The position numbers and the translations under genes are program-made. This document shows, one piece after another, positions 35,702 through 38,706 of a stretch of 49,604 bases of DNA. This DNA is from Rhodothermia bacterium (GTDB taxonomy: Bacteria > Bacteroidota > Rhodothermia > Rhodothermales > JAAAOL01). Location of the stretch: contig JAUIDY010000033.1 in assembly GCA_030428385.1 (NCBI GenBank), positions 1-49,604 of the forward strand. Reading direction: 5' to 3'. How positions within the stretch are numbered: the first letter of the stretch is position 1; each line of letters starts with the position of its first letter. Under the pieces are notes generated by a model. It had not been told where the DNA came from. It saw only the letters and a program-made list of their open reading frames with translations, and did no database searches.

Positions 35702-37681
35702 TTAGGCTGTTTGCTCCGTCAAGCCTTTACGCTGGCGGTCAATTTCGTCGTTGATCCGGGCGATAAAATCGGCGAGCGGGGCGGCACCCTGGTCACCCTC
35801 ACCATGTTTGCGGACAGCGACGGCCCCTTGCTCCTGTTCGCGTTTGCCCACAACGAGCATGTATGGGATCTTTTGCATCTCGGCCTGGCGGATTTTGTAT
35901 CCGACGGTTTCGTCACTGGCGTCTACGTGGATGCGGAGCCCGGCGTCTTGTAGCGCTTGGCCGACTTCGGCAGCGTAGGCGTTGAAGTCTTGCCCAATCG
36001 GCAACACGCGAACCTGCACGGGTGCAAGCCACGTGGGAAAGTTGCCGCCGCAGTGCTCAATCAGCACGCCGATGAACCGCTCCAGCGAGCCGAACGGGGC
36101 CCGGTGGATCATGGCGGGGCGGTGCTTCTGGTCGTCCGCGCCAATGTACCACAGGTCGAAGCGCTCAGGCAGGTTGTAATCAAGCTGCACGGTGCCGAGC
36201 TGCCACTCTCGTTTCAAGGCATCTTTGACCATAAAGTCGAGCTTGGGGCCGTAGAAGGCAGCCTCGCCCGCTTCTTCCACAGCGTCCAGCCCCATTTCGG
36301 CAGCGGCTTCGCGGATGGCTTGCTCAGCGGCATCCCACTGGGCCGGTTCGCCGACGTATTTGTCGGGGTTGTTTTTATCGCGCAGCGAAATCTGGGCCTT
36401 GAAGTCGTCGAACGACAGGGCGCGCAGCACCGTCAGCGTCAGGTCGATGACGTTTTTGAACTCGTCCTTGACCTGTTCGGCGGTGCAAAAGATGTGGGCG
36501 TCGTCCTGTGTAAAGCCGCGCACGCGTGTCAGGCCGCCCAACTCGCCGCTCTGTTCATACCGATACACAGTGCCGAACTCGGCGTAGCGGATGGGCAGGT
36601 CGCGGTACGAACGCGGTTTGTCGGCGTAGATCTGCGTGTGGTGTGGGCAGTTCATCGGCTTGAGGAGATAGCCATCTTCTTCCACGCCGTCGCCGCCTTC
36701 ATCTAGGAGCATCGGGGGGAACTGGCTTTCCTTGTAATACGGATAGTGCCCGCTGGTGCGGTACAACTCCAGCCGTCCGATGTGCGGGGTGATGACGGGC
36801 TCGTAGCCGCGCCGCACCTGCTCCTCTTTGAGGAATTCCGCCAGCGTCTCGCGCAAGACCGCGCCTTTGGGAAGCCACATCGGTAGGCCAGGGCCAACCT
36901 TGGCGTTGAAGGTGAACAACTCCAACTCTTTGCCCAACTTGCGATGGTCGCGCTGGCGGGCCAGTTCGAGCATCTCCAGGTACTCGGTCAACTCCTTCTG
37001 CTTGGGGAAGGTGATGCCGTAGAGGCGCGTAAGCTGCGGGCGTTTCTCATCGCCGCGCCAATACGCCCCGGCGATGTTCAGGATTTTGGCGGCCTTGATG
37101 GGCTTCGTCGACGGAATGTGCGGCCCACGACACAGGTCCACGAAATCGCCCTGCTGGTAAAACGTGATCGTTCCGTCTTCCAACTCGCTGATGAGTTCCA
37201 GCTTGTAGTCGTCGCCTTTCTCCGTGAAGTATTTAATCGCCTTCTCTTTCGAGACCGGGCGGCGTTCGTAGCGATTGTCCTGCCGCGCCAACTCCTTCAT
37301 CTTCTGCTCGATCTTGGGCAAGTCCTCTGCTGTCAGCTTGCGGTCGCCAAGGTCCACATCGTAATAAAACCCGTTTTCGATGGCAGGGCCGATGCCGAAC
37401 TTAACGCCCGGAAACAGTGCTTCGAGGGCCTCGGCCATGAGATGCGCCGACGAGTGCCAGAACGTCGATTTGCCTTCCTTGTCGCGCCACGTCAGGATTT
37501 CTACCGTCGCATGTTCGTCGATGGGGCGGTGCAGGTCGCGCACCTCGCCATTGACTTTGATTGCGAGGGCGTTGCGGGCGAGGCCCTCCGAGATGCGGGC
37601 CGCCACGTCGTAGCCCGTCACGCCGGACAGGTGCTGGTGGACGGAGCCATCGGGAAGGATGATGTTTATCGAGTCGATCAT
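35702..37681 (-). CDS. thrS: Threonyl-tRNA synthetase
   Basis: Charges tRNA(Thr) and edits Ser-tRNA(Thr). Domains in order: TGS (IDSINIILPDGSVHQHLSGVTGYDVAARISEGL, about residues 1-62), and the N2 editing domain with the zinc-like HxxxH (HSSAHLMAEAL) and CRGPHIPST. The class II catalytic core follows, with the zinc ligands in LLKPMNCPHHTQIY and RYAEFGTVYRYEQSGELGGLTRVRGFTQDDAHIFC. The anticodon-binding domain begins near residue 555 (LAPVQVRVLPIGQDFNAYAAEVGQ). Length is 659 from the ATG at 37681. Upstream open sequence to 37741 runs through the attenuator hairpin and is excluded. A Thr-rich leader peptide, a terminator and tRNA-Val precede it. Confidence 0.97.
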   Translation of the reverse strand: MIDSINIILPDGSVHQHLSGVTGYDVAARISEGLARNALAIKVNGEVRDLHRPIDEHATVEILTWRDKEGKSTFWHSSAHLMAEALEALFPGVKFGIGPAIENGFYYDVDLGDRKLTAEDLPKIEQKMKELARQDNRYERRPVSKEKAIKYFTEKGDDYKLELISELEDGTITFYQQGDFVDLCRGPHIPSTKPIKAAKILNIAGAYWRGDEKRPQLTRLYGITFPKQKELTEYLEMLELARQRDHRKLGKELELFTFNAKVGPGLPMWLPKGAVLRETLAEFLKEEQVRRGYEPVITPHIGRLELYRTSGHYPYYKESQFPPMLLDEGGDGVEEDGYLLKPMNCPHHTQIYADKPRSYRDLPIRYAEFGTVYRYEQSGELGGLTRVRGFTQDDAHIFCTAEQVKDEFKNVIDLTLTVLRALSFDDFKAQISLRDKNNPDKYVGEPAQWDAAEQAIREAAAEMGLDAVEEAGEAAFYGPKLDFMVKDALKREWQLGTVQLDYNLPERFDLWYIGADDQKHRPAMIHRAPFGSLERFIGVLIEHCGGNFPTWLAPVQVRVLPIGQDFNAYAAEVGQALQDAGLRIHVDASDETVGYKIRQAEMQKIPYMLVVGKREQEQGAVAVRKHGEGDQGAAPLADFIARINDEIDRQRKGLTEQTA

Positions 37682-37724
37682 GGAAAGGAAGGTTCTGGGA
37701 GTTTCGGCCAGCGCGGGCGTCAAC

Positions 37725-37755
37725 AAAAAAAGCGCCCGCAACGGTGTGGGCGCTT
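37725..37755 (-). terminator. Strong terminator upstream of thrS (attenuator or tRNA terminator)
   Basis: Perfect 8-base arms AAGCGCCC (minus 37755-37748) and GGGCGCTT (37737-37730) are followed by T7. It lies 44 bases before the thrS ATG. The 5' arm's GCGCCC can instead pair with GGGCGC at 37792-37787. That segment can in turn fold locally with GCGCC (37777-37773), giving the alternatives needed for attenuation. Confidence 0.85.
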
Positions 37756-37804
37756 CAAATAAACGAGATAACGGCGCGCAGATGATGCGCCCTCCAGGTC
37801 CGGG

Positions 37805-37873
37805 CTACCGATGGTAGCAAGGCACGCCGTGCGTCGTGCACGTTCGGGTGAAGAAGTAGGACCGGAGGTTCAT
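37805..37873 (-). CDS. Putative thrS leader peptide rich in Thr codons
   Basis: A 22-codon frame starting with ATG 22 bases after tRNA-Val and ending with TAG 13 bases before the antiterminator segment. Its centre reads FFTRTCTT, so four of six consecutive codons are Thr (ACC 37849, ACG 37843, ACG 37837, ACG 37834). A strong terminator follows before thrS. This is the arrangement expected for transcription attenuation by uncharged tRNA(Thr). It differs from E. coli thrS, which is controlled translationally by an operator that mimics tRNA. No Shine-Dalgarno is visible. The alternative is chance composition in the spacer after a tRNA gene, with the terminator serving only the tRNA. Confidence 0.5.
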   Translation of the reverse strand: MNLRSYFFTRTCTTHGVPCYHR

Positions 37874-37895
37874 CGGGGTGTATCTGCTGTTGAAG

Positions 37896-37969
37896 TGGGT
37901 CCTGGCAGATTCGAACTGCCGACCTCTACGATGTCAACGTAGCGCTCTAACCAACTGAGCTAAGGACCC
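37896..37969 (-). tRNA. tRNA-Val (GAC anticodon)
   Basis: On the minus strand a full cloverleaf can be drawn: acceptor GGGTCCT/AGGACCC, D-arm GCTCAGTTGGTTAGAGC, and anticodon stem CTACG/CGTAG around loop TTGACAT (anticodon GAC). The variable loop is AGGTC and the T-arm is GGCAGTTCGAATCTGCC. The discriminator base is A and CCA is not encoded. It lies upstream of thrS and may share its transcript. Confidence 0.95.
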
Positions 37970-38121
37970 TTTGGCGACTCTCGCAAAACGGGCACGCAAT
38001 ATATCGTGCTGCCGCAGCGGATGTCAAGCGCGTAAACGATGAAGGTACGGGGGCGTTCGCGCTTCATGGAAACTTGAACGGGGGGCTCCGTCGTTCGGTT
38101 GCGCCTCGTTTTTGTTGTTTG

Positions 38122-38706
38122 ATGCCTATGCCACACTCCGACCCGCTTTTTCCCACTCCTGCGCAGACCGCCCACCTGATTCGCACCCGGCGCACCATCC
38201 ACCTGTTCAAGCCCGAGCCGCCGCCCCTCGACGTTTTGAAAAAAGGGTTGGCATTGGCGCGCTGGGCACCGAACCACCGCCTGACGGAGCCGTGGCGGTT
38301 TTATCTGCTGGGCGAAGAAACCCGTGCGGCCATCGCCCACCTCAACGCGGATCTGGTCACGGAGGCACGCGGCGAAGCGGCGGGGCGCAGCAAGCGCGAA
38401 CGCTGGCTTTCGATTCCAGGCTGGCTGGTGGTGACCGCACAGCGGAGCGACGACCCATACCGGGACAGCGAGGATTATGCGGCCACCTGCTGCGCGGTGC
38501 ACAACCTGCAACTCTACCTGTGGAGCCATGGCATTGGCACCAAATGGACAACAGGTCCTGTCACGCAAGAGCCACGCTTTTTCGAACTCTTGGCCATCGA
38601 CTCCGAAGTCGAGCGGTTGGTGAGCCTGCTGTGGTACGGCTATCCCGCCGAGGTGCCACAAACCGAGCGCAAGCCGCTGGAGGAGGTGTTGGTGGTGTGC
38701 CCGTGA
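38122..38706 (+). CDS. Nitroreductase-family FMN oxidoreductase (YdjA-like)
   Basis: A 194-residue member of the nitroreductase fold, which uses FMN and NAD(P)H to reduce nitro- or quinone-type compounds; natural substrates are mostly unknown. Family marks are TRRTIHLFKPEPPPLDVLKKGLALARWAPNHRLTEPWRFYLLGEE (FMN-binding Arg-Arg and the 'aPnh...pWrF' loop), DYAATCCAVHNLQLYLWSHGIGTKWTTG, and the C-terminal LLWYGYPAEVPQTERKPLEEV. The 'WAPNHRLTEPWRF' and length are those of YdjA-like compact nitroreductases. The ATG at 38122 is used; 38128 is equally possible. It stands alone, followed by a palindromic repeat. Confidence 0.85.
   Translation: MPMPHSDPLFPTPAQTAHLIRTRRTIHLFKPEPPPLDVLKKGLALARWAPNHRLTEPWRFYLLGEETRAAIAHLNADLVTEARGEAAGRSKRERWLSIPGWLVVTAQRSDDPYRDSEDYAATCCAVHNLQLYLWSHGIGTKWTTGPVTQEPRFFELLAIDSEVERLVSLLWYGYPAEVPQTERKPLEEVLVVCP

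Follow-up and report, generated by a model that had tools for sequence, protein, structure and literature searches.

A candidate threonine leader-peptide attenuator between tRNA-Val and thrS in the Rhodothermales

Among aminoacyl-tRNA synthetase genes, pheST, trpS, and leuS have known classical attenuators (PMC1262725). In the pheM-pheST system of E. coli, a cognate leader peptide, a terminator, and an antiterminator control a synthetase, as we propose for the locus described here, but that system senses Phe and has no tRNA gene in front. The trpS and leuS attenuators of Streptomyces likewise represent classical attenuation of synthetase genes, whereas they respond to other amino acids and belong to another phylum (PMC1262725). 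E. coli thrL-thrABC shares a Thr-rich leader peptide and a terminator with our locus; however, it controls Thr biosynthesis and contains both Thr and Ile codons. The translational operator of E. coli thrS also exerts feedback control on thrS, but does so through ThrRS, which binds tRNA-Thr-like hairpins and blocks the ribosome. The T-box of Firmicutes thrS resembles our proposal in responding to uncharged tRNA-Thr and acting through a terminator, but binds the tRNA directly and involves no peptide. A thrS leader peptide has previously been proposed in Streptomyces lividans, where it is listed with alaS (PMC8079986). As far as the passages on thrL describe it, the peptide of strain TK24 lies before thrS and contains Thr codons, as here; it differs in that it reads MKRVRPFLETTPGFVPAR with only two Thr, is leaderless, has a termination called 'not clear', and comes from Actinomycetota, and those passages mention no tRNA gene, unlike the tRNA-Val of our locus (PMC8079986). 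The initial annotation of the present DNA regarded a Thr leader as an 'unusual third solution' for thrS. Our searches of the locus and its order gave no T-box match and no E. coli-type operator hairpin, but the claim is weakened by the S. lividans listing, as given in those passages (PMC8079986). A leader-peptide switch is of a known kind that is hardly ever reported for thrS, and our literature search found no report of such synthetase attenuators for Rhodothermota.

The window analyzed here is the whole 49,604-nt stretch of DNA from a Rhodothermia bacterium. The minus strand carries, in order, a promoter-like site, tRNA-Val(GAC), a 22-codon ATG ORF, a G+C-rich switch region, an intrinsic terminator, and thrS, with infC, rpmI, rplT, pheS, and pheT downstream of thrS. 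The parts are as follows.

37998 to 38027, minus strand: sigma-70-like promoter TTGACA-18-TATATT, 5' of tRNA-Val, 11 of 12 consensus matches
37895 to 37969, minus strand: tRNA-Val(GAC), the sole tRNA-Val(GAC) found in the genome
37805 to 37873, minus strand: leader ORF MNLRSYFFTRTCTTHGVPCYHR with its stop codon, 22 codons, ATG at 37873-37871 and TAG at 37807-37805
37849 to 37832, minus strand: putative regulatory codons ACC CGA ACG TGC ACG ACG (TRTCTT) within the leader ORF
37822 to 37850, minus strand: predicted hairpin within the ORF (segments 1:2), with the Thr codons in its 5' arm
37830 to 37822, minus strand: segment 2, ACGGCGTGC, with GCGCGCCGT at 37779-37771 as an alternative partner (9 bp)
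37787 to 37795, minus strand: segment 3, GGAGGGCGC, candidate antiterminator arm (p = 0.016 or 0.009, depending on the control)
37771 to 37779, minus strand: segment 4, GCGCGCCGT, able to pair with segment 3 or segment 2
37725 to 37755, minus strand: intrinsic terminator, a perfect 8-bp stem of AAGCGCCC (37755-37748) and GGGCGCTT (37737-37730) with a T7 run (37731-37725)
35702 to 37681, minus strand: thrS, threonyl-tRNA synthetase, function by homology

We propose, with a probability of about 0.66, that thrS is controlled here by a ribosome-mediated (classical) transcription attenuator responding to charged tRNA-Thr. The conserved ORF, the conserved terminator, their order, and the excess complementarity of an upstream segment to the terminator arm are shown by the sequences themselves; translation of the ORF, stalling, the exact order of switching, and the regulation of thrS are inferred. 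TTGACA-18-TATATT was the only promoter-like match in 37600-38200, where 0.2 were expected, and presumably drives the tRNA, the leader, and thrS together. As tRNA-Val(GAC) was found only once in the genome, its promoter presumably has to remain active; with an attenuator placed behind the tRNA, thrS could vary independently, so that the tRNA and synthetase genes would have a common promoter and yet be uncoupled.

The 22-codon ORF with Thr at four of six consecutive codons, as first annotated, is present at 37873-37805, with Thr at codons 9, 11, 13, and 14 (ACC, ACG, ACG, and ACG). Its core FFTRTCTT is also there, although at 37855-37832; the interval originally assigned to it, 37849-37832, encodes TRTCTT. 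Of 2000 dinucleotide-shuffled versions of the window gap, 6 contained an ATG ORF with at least four Thr in six codons, and the corresponding Thr clustering in relatives appeared by chance in 0 of 2000 shuffles for G030 and 15 of 2000 for G259. No Shine–Dalgarno sequence was evident for the leader ORF. The perfect 8-bp T7 terminator before thrS was confirmed, and GGGCGC (37792-37787) has the two partners claimed for it, a local GCGCGCC (37779-37773) and GCGCCC in the terminator arm (37753-37748); the CCTCC of the ORF is a further possible partner of segment 3.

To place the locus in its order, we found thrS in 110 of 114 Rhodothermales genomes and read about 100 upstream regions, 11 of which have an ATG leader ORF and, behind it, a terminator. 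The arrangement tRNA-Val, leader ORF, terminator, and thrS is seen in nine of these: the window, G267 of family f45, and G284 to G289 and G304 of family f7. All nine frames are open with an ATG and a stop codon, and all contain in-frame CGA-ACG (R-T), within the motif TRTP in six, MRTP in one, TRTCTT in the window, and TRTWTP in G267. Fewer Thr codons are present in G285 and G304 (two each) and in G289 (one). The other two leaders belong to family f4, in which the ORF and terminator stand directly before thrS without a tRNA (G030, MNRTTDTTTQPR; G259, MLMRRRTTDPQTTMPR; each ending at a stop codon); these are Thr-rich and lack CGA-ACG. When loci were instead screened for an ATG ORF with at least four Thr in eight codons, 7 of 103 in the order qualified and all seven were followed by a terminator, one of them (L109, a Thr-rich frame without a tRNA in the family mate of the window) being judged doubtful. 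Outside the order, in the class and phylum, such an ORF occurred in 1 of 124 thrS loci, without a terminator, and the combination in 0 of 124. The L005 locus (G179) was left out of the count; its tRNA-linked gap has a terminator and a frame that contains ACG, but no CGA-ACG. The initial proposal of a Thr attenuator between tRNA-Val and thrS is thus supported by the recurrence of the ORF and terminator in several genera and families of the order, one family having them without the tRNA.

The distribution of the switch within the order is patchy. In genera g8 and g149 and in family f3, a terminator follows tRNA-Val directly and leaves no room for an ORF; in other families the tRNA, the ORF, or both are missing, and G260, the only family mate of the window, has neither the tRNA nor a clear leader. 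A terminator thus occurs independently of the ORF, and repeated gain or loss of the attenuator is probable; a terminator directly behind tRNA-Val probably served the tRNA first. These loci suggest the alternative that the hairpin is only the terminator of tRNA-Val, with thrS transcribed from its own promoter and the ORF an incidental spacer. A terminator kept without the ORF, the pattern originally named as refuting the attenuator, does occur in some lineages (g8, g149, and f3). However, the strongest argument that the ORF and terminator serve thrS rather than the tRNA comes from family f4, which keeps both without any tRNA. The preservation of the frame and of the CGA-ACG codons in nine genomes also argues against a spacer, as does the short distance of about 44 nt from the T-run to the thrS start in the window, an interval in which no sigma-70-like promoter was found; the corresponding distance is 41-56 nt in G030, G285, G288, and G289. 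We therefore regard a plain tRNA terminator as unlikely, while giving it some weight.

The attenuator model is further supported by complementarity between the terminator and the segment preceding it. In the window, the segment between the ORF and the terminator is more complementary to the terminator 5' arm than expected (p = 0.016 versus shuffles and 0.009 versus real thrS coding sequence), and the nine genera tested gave combined Fisher p values of about 3e-7 and 1.7e-7, respectively. The signal was strongest in G267, G285, G284, and the window, and was not significant in G286, G288, and G289. The complementary segments are GGGCGC in the window and G267, GGGGCGC in G284 and G285, GAGCGCC in G304, and GCGGAGGCG in G030. 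The 2:4 duplex fell below 0.05 only in the window (p = 0.037) and G284 (p = 0.023), and 2:4 pairing was consequently rejected as a significant conserved helix.

Under the proposed mechanism, transcription would begin before tRNA-Val and continue through the leader. With ample Thr-tRNA, the ribosome would reach the stop codon of the leader and segment 3 would be held in upstream pairings, allowing the terminator to form, so that the tRNA alone is made. Under a shortage of charged tRNA-Thr, the ribosome would stall at ACC-CGA-ACG-TGC-ACG-ACG and open the hairpin around those codons; the freed 3' arm, segment 2, would pair downstream with segment 4 and displace the partner of segment 3. The released segment 3 could then pair with the terminator 5' arm, and polymerase would read into thrS and the genes behind it. 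Such a switch would most likely let the cell raise synthetase output when charged threonine tRNA runs low. The last two pairings of this chain cross, forming a pseudoknot. In equilibrium nested-fold predictions with the ribosome placed on the Thr codons, the terminator was still dominant in 9 of 11 leaders, and simple ribosome-masking folds did not reproduce the switch, which implies that switching would need kinetics or crossing (pseudoknot) pairing. If correct, the model would extend leader-peptide attenuation of thrS to the Rhodothermales, where comparison across genera can test the mechanism, and would give threonyl-tRNA synthetase a third mode of control beside the E. coli operator and the T-box.

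Leader-peptide attenuation appears to be used elsewhere in the order, for trpE and pheS, which counts in favor of a thrS attenuator. Trp leader peptides with WW or, in many cases, WWW precede trpE in most of the Rhodothermales loci examined (L306 and L295-L324), and the genome of the window has MTTNRTYFGFWWWHPVHAAGRSSVLA followed by a stop codon at this position. The neighboring pheST attenuator mentioned initially has an RFF leader before pheS, MTRRLNERFFTVAPSHQGR with its stop codon (34145-34086, minus strand), which resembles that of E. coli pheM-pheST and is followed by a terminator. Comparison of the window with loci L235-L290 revealed RFF (CGA TTT TTT/TTC) in 14 of 16 FF-containing pheS leader candidates, in families f1, f2, f4, f5, f8, f45, and f46. 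The cluster would then hold two leaders, one sensing Thr in front of thrS and one sensing Phe in front of pheST. A search of 20 genomes for a Thr leader before thrA was negative, which counts against the thrS attenuator.

In both the thrS and pheS leaders, CGA directly precedes the cognate codon (9 of 9 tRNA-linked thrS leaders and the 14 pheS candidates above), although CGA accounts for only 10 of 273 Arg codons in the genes of the window. The genome contains tRNA-Arg with anticodons ACG, CCG, CCT, and TCT, and no tRNA-Arg(TCG) was found; decoding of CGA would thus depend on tRNA-Arg(ACG) with inosine, a modification that we presume. In yeast, CGA-CGA codon pairs are inhibitory (PMC6301793). 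It is conceivable, if rather doubtful, that the rare CGA is a built-in slow step and that one or two cognate codons suffice to sense charged tRNA, a design that would differ from the long cognate-codon runs of classical leaders. An RNA-structure constraint behind the invariance is equally possible. Either way, the invariant CGA offers a simple new hypothesis for the workings of short leaders. The same observations would suit a different signal, in which an invariant CGA-ACG(-CCG), or R-T-P, acts through sequence-specific ribosome pausing rather than Thr counting and the signal may include more than Thr-tRNA; G289, which retains MRTP with a single Thr, points in this direction. However, the f4 leaders are Thr-rich without this codon pair, CGA does not precede TGG in the order's trpE leaders (for which reason CGA before cognate codons was rejected as a general rule), and the invariance could be due to a conserved RNA stem that includes these nucleotides. 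We consider pausing of this kind improbable and retain the attenuator that senses charged tRNA-Thr.

The flanks of the leader ORF differ between G286 and G287, by 5 of 25 nt on the upstream side and by 8 of 77 nt on the downstream side. A reading without a translated leader, in which the region acts as a non-coding RNA regulator or yields a small RNA processed from the tRNA-Val transcript, would agree with the strong folding of the region (z = -2.4) and with weak, sub-threshold Rfam sRNA matches over the terminator, but is very improbable, given that all four differences between the G286 and G287 ORFs are synonymous third-position substitutions, that all nine tRNA-linked frames are open, and that tRNA was the only Rfam family at the gathering score.

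The other known modes of thrS control were also considered. The region has no Rfam T-box match even at E values up to 10, in agreement with the absence of a T-box noted initially. A crude scan of the region around the start codon for hairpins whose 7-nt loop contains NGU detected no tRNA-Thr anticodon-arm-like hairpin in 100 loci of the order, and an E. coli-type operator was rejected; the same crude scan detected operator-like hairpins in 17 of 94 thrS loci elsewhere in the phylum. Hairpins of Pedobacter, Mucilaginibacter, and relatives (L031, L129, L181, L194, L019, L140, L167, L173, L177, and L179), located about 54-88 nt ahead of thrS, have ATCAC and GTGAT arms around a 7-nt loop with a central NGU, and judged by sequence they look like the tRNA-Thr anticodon-arm mimics of the E. 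coli operator.

Two further observations were made in the order. Family f2 (L007, L010, L012, and L013) has a strongly conserved stretch before thrS, GGTTACAACCTG...GCGGGTAGAAAGGGCCATGCAAAC. In the same assembly as the window, a 13-kb contig (L422, G000:C151:1-1700) has a dozen or more extra tRNA genes packed closely together, which may represent a phage or mobile element.
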